Origin: Lachnospiraceae bacterium
GTDB taxonomy: Bacteria; Bacillota; Clostridia; Lachnospirales; Lachnospiraceae
Direction: 5' to 3'
DNA length: 39,864 bases
Assembly: GCA_017525525.1 (NCBI GenBank)
Contig: JAFXSQ010000025.1
Coordinates: 1-39,864, forward strand
The position numbers and the translations under genes were made by a program. The stretch's first letter is position 1; each line of letters begins with the position of its first letter. Shown one piece after another: positions 3,681 through 38,200 of this stretch. The notes under the pieces are model-generated. The model ran no database searches and was not told where the DNA came from. It saw only the letters and a program-made list of their open reading frames with translations.

Positions 3681-4573
3681 TATTTCATCACCTCTATCTT
3701 CCAAAAATCACCATATGAATTCTTTATCTTAATACCATCATATTCAGCATTAGCAAAGAAATCATCGCGGTCATGATACCATTTGTCATTAAAGCATACT
3801 TCGCAGATATCTCCCTCTGGAACTGACTTAAGAATAACAAATGACGTATCATCACCAGGAACGTCATACAGACGGATCTCATGAGGAAATCTAAGTAAGT
3901 AATAAAGATCAAAGAGATCTATATTATCATAATTGAAAGGTTTCAATTCATACAGATCATCTACAAGCCACTTCATGATATTTAGATTACCAAAGAAAGC
4001 ATTGTACTTAATTCTTATTGCAAGTACATCCTTTGCATCCAGGTAAAGCTGAACTGCCTCATCAGTCTTTCCCTGTTCCGTTCGAATACGTGCAAGCCTG
4101 GTGTAAACCTCAGGAATTGGATCAAATACATCATCACACTCCTGAACCAATGGATAAAGTTCTTCAATAATCTCTACATACTTATCATAATCTTTTTCAA
4201 CATAGTAGCCGTTCTTATACATGTCAGCCACTTTATATGTTGCAACAAGATTTCCCTTATCCTTCATCTTAGAGAAGCACTCAAAAGCCTTTTTGTAATC
4301 CCTCTCTCCGGTCCTGCCATAATACCAAATATATCCAAGGCACTCATATGCCTCATCATAATCATAGGTTGCAGCCATTTCATAATACTTAAGAGCAAGA
4401 TCGAAGTTCTTAAGCTCATAGTAGTATCCACCAAGATACATCATATCCTGAGGGCGTTTTTCCTCCTCAATCAGATAATTCATAGCTTCTATAAATATGA
4501 ACTCCTCATCTTCAGATGGATTAGCACTCTCATCAAAATTGTTTACTATTCTTCTAGCTTCATCCACTGTCAT
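3680..4573 (-). CDS. Sel1-like repeat protein A, first gene of the operon
   Basis: The product is 297 residues and cytoplasmic, with no signal or membrane segment. Residues about 42-180 are helical repeats of the Sel1/TPR kind (MYLGGYYYELKNFDLALKYY, LGYIWYYGRTGERDYKKAFE, ARIRTEQGKTDEAVQLYLDA). The C-terminal 100 residues form a second domain shared with Sel1-like protein B, including NDKWY. Sel1 repeats act as binding scaffolds; the partner is unknown but may be the J-like or HIRAN protein encoded next. The start is clear: GAGGAGGGTG precedes the ATG. The stop TAA shares one base with the next ATG. The whole operon is A+T-richer than the DNA to its right. Confidence 0.8.
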   Translation of the reverse strand: MTVDEARRIVNNFDESANPSEDEEFIFIEAMNYLIEEEKRPQDMMYLGGYYYELKNFDLALKYYEMAATYDYDEAYECLGYIWYYGRTGERDYKKAFECFSKMKDKGNLVATYKVADMYKNGYYVEKDYDKYVEIIEELYPLVQECDDVFDPIPEVYTRLARIRTEQGKTDEAVQLYLDAKDVLAIRIKYNAFFGNLNIMKWLVDDLYELKPFNYDNIDLFDLYYLLRFPHEIRLYDVPGDDTSFVILKSVPEGDICEVCFNDKWYHDRDDFFANAEYDGIKIKNSYGDFWKIEVMK

Positions 4574-4745: not shown

Positions 4746-5870
4746 TCACTCATTATCCAGCATGTTCTCTATGTCCTCGTCCGACATGCCGCTCTTGATA
4801 CCGGAGTAGTCGGGCATGGTGCTCTTGGCCTCCTCCTCGACCTTTTGTTCAAGCTGGGTCTGGAGCTCTTTAATCTGCGACTCCTGAGATTCGATAATCG
4901 AATTCTTCTCACTCAGCTCCTCGCTGTAGGTACGTATCAGCTTGTCATTTTCACTCACAAGCTTCTTCTCCCTTTTGGGAACTATCACGAAGAACAAAAG
5001 AAGCGCGCCAAGCACTACGCCTATCAGAACATATATACCCGAGTATCTAGCTAAGCTTACCTCACTGAAGTTTCCCGTTCTAACCACGCTCTCGCTTCCG
5101 GTTTCCTTAAGAGTGGCAAGCTTCTTTGTCTCACGCTTTTTCTTATTAAAAGAGGTTTCGCGACCGGCGTCCTCATATTCCATGTCCTCAAAGAGGCCGT
5201 CGTCATCTATGGAGCCGTTCTTGAGCTCAAGGATATTCTCCTCGGAGCTTCCCATCTCCCTCAAATACCTTATGGCGCGCGGGTTTGCTATATCGATCTT
5301 AAGCACTCGTCTTAATGTAACCCTTGCCTTCTCGTAGTTTCCCGCCTGCATATAAAGCAGCGCAAGCAGAAGATAACCCTGCACAAAATGTGGGTTGTCC
5401 GAAAGGGCATTCTTAAGCTGAATCATTGCCAGATCGTAATCTCCGCTGTCAATATACGAAAGAGCCGTATTAAACTTCCTGGCCACGGCGTCACACTCTG
5501 CAAGTCTCACCGGATCCTTTTTAACATCCTTGAGATACTTTACCGCCACATTCCCTTCGCTCTTATAATTGACACTCATCACCCAATGCGAGAGAGCTTC
5601 GATGATTTCTCCCATCTCATAGTAACAGAGCCCTATCAGATTTCTTGCCCTTATATTCTTCTTATTGTATCTGAGGGATATCTTAAGAGACTCTATAGCG
5701 CCCGAAATGTCTCTCGCGCATGCCTTATCATATCCCTGGTTATAGTAATAATCAGAGGTATTCCACGCCTTTCTCAGAACAAATATGTTCATTCCGCATT
5801 CGGGACAGTATCCGTTTTTTCTGATATGCGCTCCGCAGTTTGGGCACATTACGGGTTTCTTTGCTGCCAT
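4746..5870 (-). CDS. Zinc-ribbon, TPR, single-pass membrane protein with coiled coil
   Basis: The product is 374 residues. The N-terminus holds a zinc ribbon with cysteines 9, 12, 22 and 25 (CPNC...CPEC). Residues about 38-110 and 132-205 are tetratricopeptide repeats (NLIGLCYYEMGEIIEALSHW, LLLALLYMQAGNYEKARVTL). An acidic then basic linker leads to one membrane helix at about 279-298. After it come a coiled coil (about 300-347) and a tail ending SGMSDEDIENMLDNE. The positive charges (PKREKK) after the helix make topology uncertain. It is the last gene of the folC group, four bases after the 57-residue gene, with AGGAGA upstream. A scaffold role is inferred; no enzymatic motif is present. Confidence 0.7.
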   Translation of the reverse strand: MAAKKPVMCPNCGAHIRKNGYCPECGMNIFVLRKAWNTSDYYYNQGYDKACARDISGAIESLKISLRYNKKNIRARNLIGLCYYEMGEIIEALSHWVMSVNYKSEGNVAVKYLKDVKKDPVRLAECDAVARKFNTALSYIDSGDYDLAMIQLKNALSDNPHFVQGYLLLALLYMQAGNYEKARVTLRRVLKIDIANPRAIRYLREMGSSEENILELKNGSIDDDGLFEDMEYEDAGRETSFNKKKRETKKLATLKETGSESVVRTGNFSEVSLARYSGIYVLIGVVLGALLLFFVIVPKREKKLVSENDKLIRTYSEELSEKNSIIESQESQIKELQTQLEQKVEEEAKSTMPDYSGIKSGMSDEDIENMLDNE

Positions 5871-14940: not shown

Positions 14941-15095
14941 AGACTCTCCGCTCCGCTCAGAGTGACACATTGCGTATCACACCGTGTCATTCTGAGAGGA
15001 GAAACGCAAATGACACAGTCATTTTATTAATGCGTTTCGACGACATGACACGACGCATAGTCGTGTCAATACATCCACATTATCCCGAAGAATCT
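14941..15095. repeat. Short palindromic repeat, expanded copy with several hairpins
   Basis: This gap between the ABC permease and addB starts AGACTCTCCGCTCCGCTCAG and ends CCCGAAGAATCT, imperfect inverted ends shared with four other intergenic copies in the window. Inside are GTGACAC...GTGTCATTCTGAG, the nested stem GAAACGCA/TGCGTTTC enclosing TGAC/GTCA, and the perfect pair TGACACGAC/GTCGTGTCA around a 5-base loop. No reading frame is present. It resembles the short palindromic intergenic repeats found in many bacterial genomes. Here it might cut transcription between the two neighbouring gene pairs. Confidence 0.65.
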
Positions 15096-34040: not shown

Positions 34041-34946
34041 TCACTTCACATAGTCAACTGCGGCGAGGGCTGCCACGGTTCCGTCGGCGGCAGCGGTGGT
34101 GAGCTGGCGGACGGTCTTGGTGCGGCAGTCGCCTGCCGTGAAGATACCGGGGATGTTCGTGCGGCAATCCTCGAAAGCAATAACGTATCCTGCGCTGTCA
34201 AGTTCGACAATGTCCTTGACAAACTCTGTGTCAGGTACCTGACCGACTGCGATAAAGCATCCGTCTACCGCAAGGCTGCCCTTCTCGCCTGTTTTATGGT
34301 CCGTATAGTTAAGAGCCGAAAGCTTTCCTTCGCCCGTAAGGCTGTCTACGGTAACATCCGTAAGGAAGTGAACATTCTCTTTGGATCTCAAGAGTTCCAA
34401 GGTCGATGGTTCACCCCTGAAGCCGTCGCGACGATGAACTATTGTCACGGACTCGCAATAATTCGATAAGAATACTGCGTCGTCAAGAGCGGTATTACCT
34501 CCTCCGCAGATAGCAGTCTTCTTCTTGCGGTAGAACATACCGTCGCAGGTTGCGCAGTAGCTTACTCCCGCGCCCGCGAATTCGTCCTCACCCGGCACAT
34601 TAAGCTTTCTTCTCTTGGCGCCCGTAGCGATTATAACTGAAGCGCCCTCGTACTTGTCTACTGTGGTAGTCACTATAAAACCTTCATCCGACTTTGTTAC
34701 CTCCGTCACGGTCTCATTCTTAAACTCCATGCCAAGAGCTGACGCCTGCTCGTAAAGAGCCGTCACAAACTCAAAGCCCGAGATATTCTTAAAACCGGGG
34801 TAATTGGCTATCTCCGGCGAATTGACTATCTGACCGCCGTAGGTTGCCCCCTCTAAGACAAGCGCCTGCTTCCCCGCGCGCTGCACGTAAATAGCTGCAG
34901 TCAGTCCCGCGGTACCGGCGCCGATTATTATCACATCGTATTTCAT
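34041..34946 (-). CDS. trxB: Thioredoxin reductase
   Basis: TrxB passes electrons from NAD(P)H through FAD to thioredoxin. The FAD site is IIGAGTAGLTAA (7-18), the redox centre CATC (Cys131, Cys134), the nucleotide site ICGGGNTALDDA, and GIFTAGDCR closes the FAD domain. At 301 residues it has the usual size. The open frame extends 38 codons further upstream into an intergenic repeat; the ATG at 34946 has GAGAGGA nine bases upstream and gives the canonical N-terminus. It lies 154 bases after trxA, separated by a palindromic repeat. Confidence 0.96.
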   Translation of the reverse strand: MKYDVIIIGAGTAGLTAAIYVQRAGKQALVLEGATYGGQIVNSPEIANYPGFKNISGFEFVTALYEQASALGMEFKNETVTEVTKSDEGFIVTTTVDKYEGASVIIATGAKRRKLNVPGEDEFAGAGVSYCATCDGMFYRKKKTAICGGGNTALDDAVFLSNYCESVTIVHRRDGFRGEPSTLELLRSKENVHFLTDVTVDSLTGEGKLSALNYTDHKTGEKGSLAVDGCFIAVGQVPDTEFVKDIVELDSAGYVIAFEDCRTNIPGIFTAGDCRTKTVRQLTTAAADGTVAALAAVDYVK

Positions 34947-34965
34947 AAATCGTATCCTCTCTAAA

Positions 34966-35100
34966 ATTCTTCGCTTCCTGTTGCTTCGCAAGCCCTCGCA
35001 TTTCGTCATAAGGGGTACCGCTTGCGGTGGATTCCTTATGACATCGACGGCCGGCACCATACTGCTTCGCAGTATGATCAGCGTCGCTCAGGATGACGCC
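34966..35100. repeat. Palindromic repeat region between trxA and trxB
   Basis: The region begins ATTCTTCGCTTC and ends GCTCAGGATGACGCC, the two halves of the short repeat found elsewhere in the window, with about 100 extra bases between them. The insert contains the hairpin CATAAGG...CCTTATG and ATACTGCTTCGCAGTAT (35059-35075). The latter recurs almost exactly near 39813-39829. It may attenuate trxB expression relative to trxA. Confidence 0.55.
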
Positions 35101-35412
35101 TTATAATCCGAGTGCCTTAAGAAGCTGATCCTTCGGAAGCGCTCCGACCGACTTGCCTGCTACCTCTCCATCCTTGAACAGGAATACACAAGGGATACTC
35201 ATTACGCTGTATTTTTCGGCAAGAGAGCCGTTGGCGTCAACGTCAACCTTACATACCTTCACGTCATCTCTCTCATCCGAGATCTGCTCTACTATGGGGC
35301 CGAGCATCTTGCACGGTCCGCACCAGCTTGCCCAGAAATCAACTATAACGGGCTTATCGCTCTTTAATACCTCTTCCTCAAAGTTTGCTTCGTTCAAATG
35401 TAATGCTGCCAT
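35101..35412 (-). CDS. trxA: Thioredoxin
   Basis: The product is 103 residues. The active site WCGPC (30-34) sits in FWASWCGPCKMLGP. The cis-proline is at 74 in MSIPCVF; the residue after it is Cys75, where most thioredoxins have Thr. The ribosome binding site AAGGAGG is strong. It precedes trxB in the same direction, so the two make a thioredoxin system. A TATAAT-like sequence lies about 40 bases upstream of the ATG but has no good -35 partner. Confidence 0.96.
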   Translation of the reverse strand: MAALHLNEANFEEEVLKSDKPVIVDFWASWCGPCKMLGPIVEQISDERDDVKVCKVDVDANGSLAEKYSVMSIPCVFLFKDGEVAGKSVGALPKDQLLKALGL

Positions 35413-35452: not shown

Positions 35453-35515
35453 AGATTATTCGCTACGCTCAGGATGACACGTGTCATGACTTAAGGCCTA
35501 TATCACGAAGAATCT
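35453..35515. repeat. Short palindromic repeat upstream of trxA
   Basis: AGATTATTCGCTACGCTCAG at the left faces CACGAAGAATCT at the right. The centre is the perfect 14-base palindrome ATGACACGTGTCAT (35474-35487). It belongs to the same repeat class as copies at 14.9, 25.7, 35.0 and 38.2 kb and separates the GTPase gene from trxA. Confidence 0.65.
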
Positions 35516-35548: not shown

Positions 35549-38182
35549 CTAACTTTCCTTCAAATTATAATTCATCTTGAATTCATTTTCAAGTCTTTTT
35601 ATATCTTCTTTTAAATCATTCGCCGACATCACGTATCCGCCCTGTCCTCTGACTATAGTCTGGATCATGCCGTCGGAGCTTGCAACAGTAATCTCATACT
35701 TTGCTTTCATGTCATGCGTAAAGCGTTCTATGAAAGCATCCGCAGTCACGCCTTCCTTGGTATGAACCACCGTTATCTGCTCTGCCTTGGTCTCGCTGCC
35801 CTGATTGCCCTTGGTCTTGTAGCCGTCGAACACAAGGAGTATCTCACGATCGCACATGCCCTGATAGTTTGAAAGAATCCTTATCAGGCTCAGCTTTGCT
35901 GAGTCCATATTATCCTTTAAAAGCGCGCTTAAATCATCCCAGGCGTAGATTATATTAAAGCCGTCCACGATAAGCAGCTTATCCTTAGACACCGTCTGCG
36001 CCGCGCTCTTTGAGACATGCCCTCCCGAAGCCGTGCCCGAAGGCATACCGGAACTCATCACCCGCTCCCTGTCCGGCAGCTTTTTCTTCTTATAAGCGCT
36101 CTTTTTCTTGTTGGCGTTCGCTGCTGCGGTACGGCTTATTATGCTGTCTATCTCTTCCAAATCTATGCTTATTCCGTCAAAGCTTCCGCCCTGCCTTGCC
36201 ATGCGCGCCGGATCTATCTGTACGTTTTCATAGGCCTCTTCATCCGTAAGATGCTTGTAGGAATCAACCTCATACCAAGGAACCACAAAGCCCGCTCCAT
36301 GCGCGCAGAACACAGACGAAGGAGGGTTGGCAAGATCTGCCTCAGGATCGTAGTCAACGCCCGCAAGGACCTCCTCCTCATTATGGCACTCATCGTACCC
36401 GGCTAAGGTAACGCTCATCTGCCCCTTTCCGCCCGTATAGGAATTCAGGTTCACCTGATAGTCCATCAGGGTTGACACAGGGCCTCTTCCGATTATCACG
36501 GCATTCTCGCCATCATTTTCATGCGTATCAATATGAGCATACAGATTGTTTAGGTCAGTCATCGCGCGTCCGAGCATGGACGACGGAACATTTACGGTAA
36601 AGTTGTAATATGGCTCAAGCAGCATACTCTCTGCCTTCATCAGCCCCTGCCTTACCGCGCGTATCGTAGCCTTCCTGAAGTCGCCGCCCTCGGTGTGCTT
36701 CGGATGCGCGCGACCGTTAATCAGCACAAGCTTGACATCCGTAAGCTGTCCGCCCATAAGCACTCCCTTATGCTGCTTTTCGCGAAGGTGGTACATTATC
36801 AGGCGCTGCCAGTTCTTGTCTAAGACATCCTCGGAAAGCTCAGATTCTATTTCAATTCCCGACCCTCTCTCGCCGGGCTCTATCCTCACGTGAACCTCCG
36901 CGTAGTGTCTCAAGGGCTCAAAATGCCCCACTCCGACAGCGGAGCTCTTCACGGTCTCCTTGTAGGTTATTCGCCCCGTGGTAAACCTCGGAGTAAAATG
37001 CAATCTTACCAGGATGAGCTCGGTCAGGATCTCGAGCTGCACGCGTCCCATCAGCTTGACCCTTATCTCCTCATTTGTCTCATCCCACTCCACGGAAAGC
37101 TCCGGCATCTCCTCCGAGAGAGCCATAATCTCAGGATAAATGTGTCGCGGCTTTATATTGTCCGGCGTAAGCATGGTATAAACTATTACCGGCTCAATCA
37201 GCCTTATGTCGTTGCCCTTTTCAAACCCGTAACCGCAGCCCGCATAGGAGTCGGACAAGCCCGGAATTGCAACCACATCTCCGGCTTTCGCCTCGCTTAG
37301 GTTCTCATACTTATCTCCGTTATACATTCTTATCTCGTTGACCTTGTCTCCGTCCTCGCCGACTACATCCTTAAGCTTAAGTCCGCCTCCCGTAATCTTA
37401 ACATGGGCCAGTCTCTCGCCCTTTGCGTCACGGGTTATCTTGTAACACAAGGCTCCGAAATCCCTGCCGTATCTGGGTGGAGCGCACAGCAGCTCAAGCA
37501 TCTCGAGGAGCTCATCCACTCCGCTTAATCTCAAAGCCGATCCGAAAAAGCACGGGAAGAGTTCTCTCTCGGCGATAAGACTTCTTGCCTCCGCAAGTCT
37601 CACCCTGCCCGTTTCAAGAAAGGCATCTATTTCGTCCTCATCCGCCGTAAGCATAGCCACATCTTCACAGGCTCCGCCGTACAGCGATACATTTTCCTTG
37701 TCGTATGCTATCTCCGAGAAATCGACACAGGCGGAGGAAAGCTTCGCCTTAAGCTCCTTCATGCACGCCTCGGCATCCGCGCCCGGCTGATCCATCTTGT
37801 TCACGAACACAAAGGTCGGAATATTGTATTCCTTAAGAAGCCTGAACAGGGTAAGGGTATGCCCCTGCACTCCGTCCGCCGCGCTTATCAAAAGGATTGC
37901 GTAATCAAGCACAGCCAGCGTTCTCTCTGCCTCCGCGGCAAAGTCCACATGCCCCGGTGTATCGAGCAGGGTAAGCGTAAAACGCTCCATTGGAAGAACC
38001 GCCTGCTTGGAAAAGATGGTTATCCCTCGGCGTCTTTCCTGCTCGTCCGTATCAAGCATGGAATCTCCGTTATCCACTCTTCCGAGCTTCTTCCTCACTC
38101 CCGTTTTATAGGCAAATGCTTCGGAGAGCGTAGTCTTGCCCGCATCCACGTGCGCAAGTATGCCCAGTACAATGTTCGCCAT
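35549..38182 (-). CDS. TetM/EF-G-like translational GTPase fused to a C-terminal NYN (Rae1/YacP-like) nuclease domain
   Basis: The protein has 877 residues. The first 640 or so are a ribosome GTPase of the TetM/EF-G type: P-loop AHVDAGKTT (10-18), RGITI (52-56), DTPGHVDF (74-81), NKMD (128-131), then domains II to V (GRVQLEILTELI, LLEPYYNFTVNVPS). A basic linker (about 690-735) follows. Residues 735-870 are a NYN/PIN-like domain with the metal acids IVDGFN (Asp740), VFDGYK (Asp786), TADAFIE (Asp815) and SSDG (Asp837). Stand-alone proteins of this type (Bacillus Rae1) cut mRNA in the ribosomal A site. Tetracycline protection is not implied by the sequence. AAGGAGA precedes the ATG. Confidence 0.88.
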   Translation of the reverse strand: MANIVLGILAHVDAGKTTLSEAFAYKTGVRKKLGRVDNGDSMLDTDEQERRRGITIFSKQAVLPMERFTLTLLDTPGHVDFAAEAERTLAVLDYAILLISAADGVQGHTLTLFRLLKEYNIPTFVFVNKMDQPGADAEACMKELKAKLSSACVDFSEIAYDKENVSLYGGACEDVAMLTADEDEIDAFLETGRVRLAEARSLIAERELFPCFFGSALRLSGVDELLEMLELLCAPPRYGRDFGALCYKITRDAKGERLAHVKITGGGLKLKDVVGEDGDKVNEIRMYNGDKYENLSEAKAGDVVAIPGLSDSYAGCGYGFEKGNDIRLIEPVIVYTMLTPDNIKPRHIYPEIMALSEEMPELSVEWDETNEEIRVKLMGRVQLEILTELILVRLHFTPRFTTGRITYKETVKSSAVGVGHFEPLRHYAEVHVRIEPGERGSGIEIESELSEDVLDKNWQRLIMYHLREKQHKGVLMGGQLTDVKLVLINGRAHPKHTEGGDFRKATIRAVRQGLMKAESMLLEPYYNFTVNVPSSMLGRAMTDLNNLYAHIDTHENDGENAVIIGRGPVSTLMDYQVNLNSYTGGKGQMSVTLAGYDECHNEEEVLAGVDYDPEADLANPPSSVFCAHGAGFVVPWYEVDSYKHLTDEEAYENVQIDPARMARQGGSFDGISIDLEEIDSIISRTAAANANKKKSAYKKKKLPDRERVMSSGMPSGTASGGHVSKSAAQTVSKDKLLIVDGFNIIYAWDDLSALLKDNMDSAKLSLIRILSNYQGMCDREILLVFDGYKTKGNQGSETKAEQITVVHTKEGVTADAFIERFTHDMKAKYEITVASSDGMIQTIVRGQGGYVMSANDLKEDIKRLENEFKMNYNLKES

Positions 38183-38200
38183 ATTGTTCTCCTTCTTATA

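Follow-up and report, generated by a model that had tools for sequence, protein, structure and literature searches.

What is a gene for that joins, in one open reading frame, a GTPase resembling the tetracycline resistance factor TetM and elongation factor G (EF-G) to a nuclease domain of the Rae1/YacP type? Such a fusion gene lies on contig JAFXSQ010000025.1 of a Lachnospiraceae bacterium (assembly GCA_017525525.1), and the whole stretch of 39,864 nucleotides is called the window here. Rae1 of Bacillus subtilis is described as an mRNA nuclease acting in the ribosomal A site in passages of PMC12320835, PMC10100781 and PMC6613710, and according to part of PMC8161019 the binding positions of Tet-type factors in the A site overlap with those of EF-G and tetracycline. 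The encoded protein is probably the organism's own Rae1, an endoribonuclease that would be docked by its GTPase and cut mRNA in the A site, and from sequence comparison the probability of this reading is put at roughly 60%. Both domains appear intact with conserved catalytic residues, the GTPase tree suggests that the fusion arose once, and the stand-alone Rae1 gene appears to have been replaced by it. Three observations make delivery of the nuclease to the ribosome the natural interpretation: the acidic residues are conserved, the fusion is widespread, and it takes the place of Rae1.

A preliminary description of this DNA, made from its letters, had reported complete TetM/EF-G-like G motifs and, in the same chain, a Rae1/YacP-like NYN domain with four acidic residues. 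Both claims were borne out by Pfam matches and by reading of the motifs, and the coordinates as well as the acidic nature of residues 740 and 786 were correct. The gene and its parts are arranged as follows.

35549..38182, minus strand: whole fusion gene, 877 amino acids from an ATG, with a TetM/EF-G-like GTPase and a YacP/Rae1-type NYN nuclease domain (open reading frame; Pfam domains)
38189..38194, minus strand: ribosome binding site AAGGAG, 6 bases ahead of the ATG (read by eye)
37490..38170, minus strand: GTPase (G) domain, residues 5–231 (Pfam GTP_EFTU, E 4.6e-49)
36629..36973, minus strand: domain IV, residues 404–518 (Pfam EFG_IV, E 7.7e-18)
36674..36715, minus strand: domain IV tip loop GRAHPKHTEGGDFR, residues 490–503, signature HxKHTxGGDFR (alignment with TetM)
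36377..36622, minus strand: EF-G C-terminal domain V, residues 521–602 (Pfam EFG_C, E 3.8e-20)
36263..36400, minus strand: conserved extension at or after the end of domain V, residues 595–640, with SSVFCAHGAGFVVPW at about 622–636 (conservation among fusion proteins)
35978..36247, minus strand: linker, residues 646–735, mostly variable, with the basic stretch KKKSAYKKKK (conservation among fusion proteins)
35564..35974, minus strand: NYN (YacP/Rae1-type) nuclease domain, residues 737–873 (Pfam NYN_YacP, E 1.5e-38)
35963..35965, minus strand: Asp740 codon, Rae1 Asp7 by alignment (132/132 fused, 48/48 stand-alone)
35825..35827, minus strand: Asp786 codon, Rae1 Asp53 by alignment (132/132 fused, 48/48 stand-alone)
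35738..35740, minus strand: Asp815 codon, Rae1 Asp81 by alignment (132/132 fused, 48/48 stand-alone)
35672..35674, minus strand: Asp837 codon, Rae1 Asp104 by alignment (131/132 fused, 48/48 stand-alone)

Read by eye, the G motifs comprise the P-loop GILAHVDAGKTT (residues 7–18), RGIT (52–55), DTPGH (74–78) and NKMD (128–131), and K16, T17, I54, D74, P76, G77, H78, N128, K129 and D131 are retained in 49/49 fused GTPase sequences. Domain II (EF-G_D2) falls slightly under the Pfam cut-off in the window protein (24.9 vs 27 bits). The best solved relatives of the GTPase part are TetM (3j9y, E 5.3e-75) and TetO. The NYN_YacP match reaches 132.9 bits at a Pfam cut-off of 24.6, and the only relatives of the NYN part in the PDB are the B. 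subtilis YacP/Rae1 entries 5mq8 and 5mq9 (E 1.7e-16). The Pfam scan of the window protein gave no match between residue 602 and the NYN domain, and so none over the SSVFCAHGAGFVVPW extension. This extension carries [ST][VI]FC in 104/104 fusion proteins, and the fuller form of its motif is found in 20/22 GTPase-only relatives and in 0/15 Tet-like sequences. An assembly artefact is ruled out as the source of the fusion, since both domains are spanned by one frame in 104 distinct proteins, the window protein included; this count leaves out L001, L002, L032 and L033 (the window protein itself or duplicates), L024, L027 and L030 (cut) and L031 (GTPase only).

A label as a tetracycline resistance gene had been called misleading beforehand, and this warning is supported. 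The best NCBIfam match of the window protein is a Tet protection model, and the Tet cut-offs are missed (NF012153, 396 of 775 bits; NF033148, 281 of 1100 bits), as is that for EF-G (TIGR00484, 259.6 of 659.4 bits); a separate 720-residue EF-G-like frame is present elsewhere in the home genome (G000:C6). Ten comparison proteins, seven Tet-like and three GTPase-only, served as a control scan. The TetM-type protein L211 passed both Tet cut-offs (819 and 1285 bits), L206 passed the general one only and five further Tet-like proteins passed neither, so that any cut-off was passed by just 2/7 Tet-like proteins. The three GTPase-only relatives scored 408–421 of 775 bits, like the window protein, and reached no NCBIfam cut-off shown. 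An 'OtrA-like' label, given by eye to some of the Tet-like proteins, was dropped, as the scan did not bear it out.

The domain IV tip points in the same direction. TetM carries Pro509 at the drug site in its tip loop (PMC8161019, in part). This loop reads YYSPVSTPADF in TetM vs HxKHTxGGDFR in the fused and GTPase-only family, and the residue aligned with Pro509 is Lys495 (lysine in 46/49 fused and 21/22 GTPase-only sequences). The first histidine of HxKHTxGGDFR aligns with a histidine in 3/3 EF-G sequences. Taken alone, the lysine and the identity of the loop would still allow tetracycline protection. A phylogeny of the GTPase against TetM and EF-G, proposed in the preliminary description, was built by a quick method with Shimodaira–Hasegawa-like approximate likelihood ratio (SH-aLRT) support from 89 rows (49 fused, window included, 22 GTPase-only, 15 Tet-like and three EF-G). 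The fused sequences group apart from the Tet-like ones: together with the GTPase-only sequences they form one clade (SH-aLRT 100) that holds 0/15 Tet-like rows, while the order of the deepest branches is only tentative. Judged by its sequence, the GTPase is not a Tet protein proper, lacking the Tet-defining features tested beyond the general domain layout.

How common is the fusion, and how often did it arise? Genome samples were drawn by tool, the tree rows were picked by us from the loci collected, and some listings of relatives hold the most similar ones only. In the order sample, the fusion was found in an intact open frame of 848–1045 residues in 64/196 genomes, and the NYN match was confirmed in the long frame for all 64, the home genome and G027 included. 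Beyond these, G148 (open reading frame cut at a contig end) and G134 (two frames) have both parts on one contig, and in G116 the GTPase part runs to the contig end with no NYN match. The class sample yielded the fusion in 85/243 genomes, a count that includes cut copies (e.g. G545 and G652) and the interrupted frame of G657 (618 residues); the match reached at least residue 800 in 82, and in G550, G592 and G620 it stopped near residue 650, but NYN motifs were present on reading. Within the genus, 26/37 genomes had one NYN_YacP match each, 23 in frames of 846–905 residues, one in a frame of 832 (G017) and two in frames of 674 that lack the GTPase start (G030 and G032). In a DNA scan of named genomes, 80/80 matches among the best 80 of 479 relatives reached the NYN domain (at least residue 858), and the hosts of these 80 were, by title, mainly Lachnospiraceae and uncultured Clostridia.

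Thus, the fusion is neither rare nor degenerate, which had been named beforehand as signs against it. Broken or cut copies do exist (G134 in two frames, G657, and G148 and G116 at contig ends), and degeneracy of the fusion as such is ruled out because the catalytic residues are invariant and the NYN motifs are still carried by G550, G592 and G620. All 49 fused rows fall into one clade of the GTPase tree (SH-aLRT 99), and one change suffices there for the fused label, so that the fusion apparently has a single origin on this tree. Repeated independent fusions were also considered and rejected, the GTPase tree needing only that one change, although the NYN tree needs two.

In B. subtilis, rae1 adjoins and is co-transcribed with yacO (rlmB), as described in a section of PMC6613710. 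Among 49 stand-alone NYN loci, with about 1.5 kb of flank on each side, rlmB was found in 42/49 and a sigH-like gene in 47/49. Neither was seen near the fused gene in any of 119 loci (80 with up to 5 kb of flank and 39 with short flanks, some genomes repeated). The naming of rlmB and sigH relies on TIGR00186 together with gene order. In the home genome, the only NYN_YacP match is the fusion itself, and the rlmB and sigH-like genes (L220), with Pfam SpoU methylase and sigma-70 domains, lie 3 bp apart. Ten fusion genomes were inspected at rlmB. No NYN sequence was detected in this region by tblastn in 7/10 (L220–L225 and L232), the rae1 slot being less certain in L222 and L223, where no sigH-like gene was seen beside rlmB. 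Decayed rae1 pieces lie between rlmB and sigH in 2/10: L228 (G084, 4769–5109) has stop codons in all forward frames across the gap, and L229 (G056, 3837–3929) retains a 31-residue piece. An intact rae1 was found at rlmB in 1/10 (L227, G166).

Across the order sample, NYN_YacP occurs as one match per genome in 173 of the 178 genomes that have it. The remaining five comprise G177, where two pieces belong to a single 202-residue frame; G084 and G056, where the fusion is accompanied by a short broken remnant (weak Pfam matches, the frames being 48 and 62 residues long); and G148 and G166, which are taken up below. A Fisher test for mutual exclusivity of fusion and stand-alone gene was extreme, with related genomes treated as independent. 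The fusion thus appears to have replaced the stand-alone Rae1 gene, and in genus g60 (G084, G148 and G166) this replacement seems to have been caught in progress.

The nuclease domain was compared in an alignment of 132 distinct fused and 48 distinct stand-alone domains. The conservation of the NYN acids, on which the preliminary description had made its proposal depend, was confirmed, with D837 lacking in a single fused domain. D740, N743, D786, D815 and E819 are invariant in both kinds. Other positions are relaxed in the fused domains: Arg851, which corresponds to B. subtilis Arg118 by alignment, is present in 48/48 stand-alone vs 41/132 fused domains (valine in the window protein), position 849 is kept in 46/48 vs 41/132 and position 856 in 47/48 vs 77/132. 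The tail after position 853 measures 45–52 residues in stand-alone domains, 20–62 in fused tree rows and 24 in the window protein. The state of Arg851 needs two changes on the NYN tree and four on the GTPase tree, so its loss goes back to a small number of events. In our reading, the catalytic core would be constrained as in Rae1 and the docking surface would have been freed, because the GTPase docks instead.

From these data, we infer ribosome docking, A-site cutting, GTP control and a rescue step. A ribosome whose A site is free would be bound at its factor site by the GTPase in its GTP form, and domain IV with its HxKHTxGGDFR tip would enter the decoding region; this ribosome may be stalled, drug-bound or collided. 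The long linker might then allow the NYN domain, after GTP hydrolysis or a shift of domains, to reach the A-site codon and cut the mRNA, once domain IV makes room. The truncated complex would then be rescued, most likely by transfer-messenger RNA (tmRNA) and SmpB, for which the cut product would be a substrate because the ribosome is left with no stop codon. SmpB is encoded in the home genome. A translation factor equipped with an mRNA nuclease of its own is not known to have been described.

The GTPase also occurs by itself. A GTPase-only branch of the EF-G/Tet superfamily (L180–L201, about 640–690 residues) has the same HxKHTxGGDFR tip, with examples at L181 142–2088 (minus strand) and L183 152–2080 (plus strand), and G577 has two copies. 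A stand-alone NYN gene was found in 24/24 order-sample genomes with a GTPase-only relative vs 88/105 with no such GTPase (Fisher p 0.023, kinship ignored), and both GTPase-only cases of the phylum sample (G411 and G435) also have one. The two are likely partners, as they are fused in some lineages and co-occur in others; the co-occurrence is suggestive of a functional link and falls short of proof, given the high base rate. It is quite possible, though somewhat less likely than not, that the GTPase with this tip and Rae1 form one clostridial A-site surveillance pathway, two proteins or one depending on the lineage, in which the GTPase would load and time the mRNA cutter and cutting would be GTP-gated. 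In G122 and G197 (L231 3787–4308, minus strand; L181), the NYN gene lies away from rlmB, the GTPase is separate and the NYN sequence groups with the fused ones. This may be a fission of the fusion or a lineage where the fusion never formed.

Several points weigh against the protein being the organism's Rae1. The A site would be contested by domain IV and the Rae1 domain, which would have to act one after the other, unless the NYN domain enters from the side. The loss of Arg851 and of the C-terminal tail could also be read as a weakened nuclease; R166P is among the B. subtilis rae1 suppressor alleles taken as loss of function in the part of PMC6613710 concerned. The gene is dispensable, because 11/37 genus genomes have no NYN_YacP match, two of them among the 18 of good quality. 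The fused label needs its two changes on the weakly resolved NYN tree, where the identical stand-alone sequences of G122 and G197 fall inside the fused group. G148 and G166 carry an intact 177-residue stand-alone gene beside the fusion, both being of one genus and with contamination of 5–6%. The ten rlmB regions were chosen by us, and the tests for co-occurrence and exclusivity ignore kinship.

Three other explanations have to be weighed. The protein might be a tetracycline ribosomal protection protein whose added RNase offers a further route to resistance, as suggested by Atkinson in 2015. This would fit TetM and TetO as best solved relatives, the Tet model as best NCBIfam match and the filing under Tet in the available part of PMC4342817. 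It is improbable given that the window protein and three GTPase-only relatives stay under the Tet cut-offs that TetM-type L211 exceeds, that lysine and a different tip loop replace the Pro509 region, and that no Tet-like row falls into the clade of fused and GTPase-only rows. Moreover, the fusion is single-copy wherever present in the genus, G006 and G035 carry beside it another protein, of 643 residues, that resembles TetM in size and score, and reading by eye of the 14 most frequent neighbour families at 81 loci revealed no transposase or integrase.

A function in the maturation of ribosomes or tRNA, with the GTPase binding to ribosomes or to intermediates of their assembly and the NYN domain trimming rRNA or tRNA precursors, is likewise unlikely. 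Stand-alone rae1 sits beside rlmB and near a gene with an RNase III domain, and the products of rlmB and RNase III genes act on rRNA. NYN domains have been proposed for rRNA and tRNA maturation, as cited in a passage of PMC4342817. Against this, Rae1 of B. subtilis, which stands closest among the relatives whose activity has been described, is reported to be an A-site mRNA nuclease, and the fused gene lies outside the rlmB neighbourhood. Rather unlikely, too, is a loose link in which the GTPase serves some role of its own and the tethered NYN domain works as a free Rae1 outside GTP control. The long and mostly variable linker would agree with such a tether, as would the relatives in which both genes are intact and separate and the lineage of G122 and G197, whose genes are separate even though its NYN sequence falls among the fused ones; the retention of a fusion of single origin across many families and the relaxation of Arg851 in fused sequences only (0/48 stand-alone) speak for more than that.

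The surroundings of the gene were also inspected. A conserved operon was rejected, since the commonest neighbour family, an ABC-transporter ATPase by eye, occurs in only 19/81 loci. Directly downstream in the window, on the minus strand, lie a thioredoxin-like (35101–35412) and a thioredoxin-reductase-like gene (34041–35060), named by reading their open reading frames. A short repeat of the GTCATCCTGAGCG type is present in two copies, at 35453–35478, between genes, and at 14941–14966, with 1 and 3 mismatches to the pattern and none expected by chance; by eye, it looks like a repetitive extragenic palindromic (REP)-like element.

If the fusion is the organism's Rae1, a large part of the gut Clostridia would control ribosomal mRNA cutting with a dedicated GTPase. 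What are at present taken for distant tetracycline resistance factors would be quality-control enzymes, which matters for resistome annotation. There would also be a handle on Rae1 recruitment, as surfaces lost when Rae1 is carried by the GTPase are candidates for its ribosome contacts. Two sentences of a 2015 survey are turned into a testable claim here.

The fusion architecture itself is already in print: as far as the accessible text of PMC4342817 goes, in 2015 Atkinson described Tet proteins from ten Clostridiales species that carry a YacP-like NYN domain, and proposed resistance by means of an RNase. A literature search found no functional test of the fusion; the main Rae1 papers lay outside it and may hold earlier remarks. 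Nothing on the fusion was found in the portions available of PMC7725328 and PMC1780047. New here are the GTPase set apart from Tet, the single origin and commonness of the fusion, the replacement of Rae1 and the relaxation of Arg851.

Among known systems, the Tet-NYN proteins of Atkinson, as far as they are described in PMC4342817, have the same architecture, GTPase then NYN, and the same host group, Clostridia. They were named Tet and linked to RNase-based resistance, whereas here the GTPase stands apart from Tet and the NYN domain appears to replace Rae1. TetM and TetO have the EF-G-like domains and complete G motifs in common with the fusion, which differs in its domain IV tip, the absence of Pro509, another C-terminal extension and scores below the NCBIfam cut-offs. 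RelE-type toxins are small proteins and have no GTPase. The activity proposed for the fusion, cutting of mRNA in the A site, is theirs as well (named in part of PMC12320835). B. subtilis Rae1/YacP (5mq8, 5mq9) resembles the fusion in its NYN_YacP domain and conserved acids; it stands alone next to yacO/rlmB, whereas the fusion carries it at the C-terminus of a GTPase, with Val851 at the position of Arg118 and with a tail that falls short of that of the stand-alone sequences by about 25 residues.

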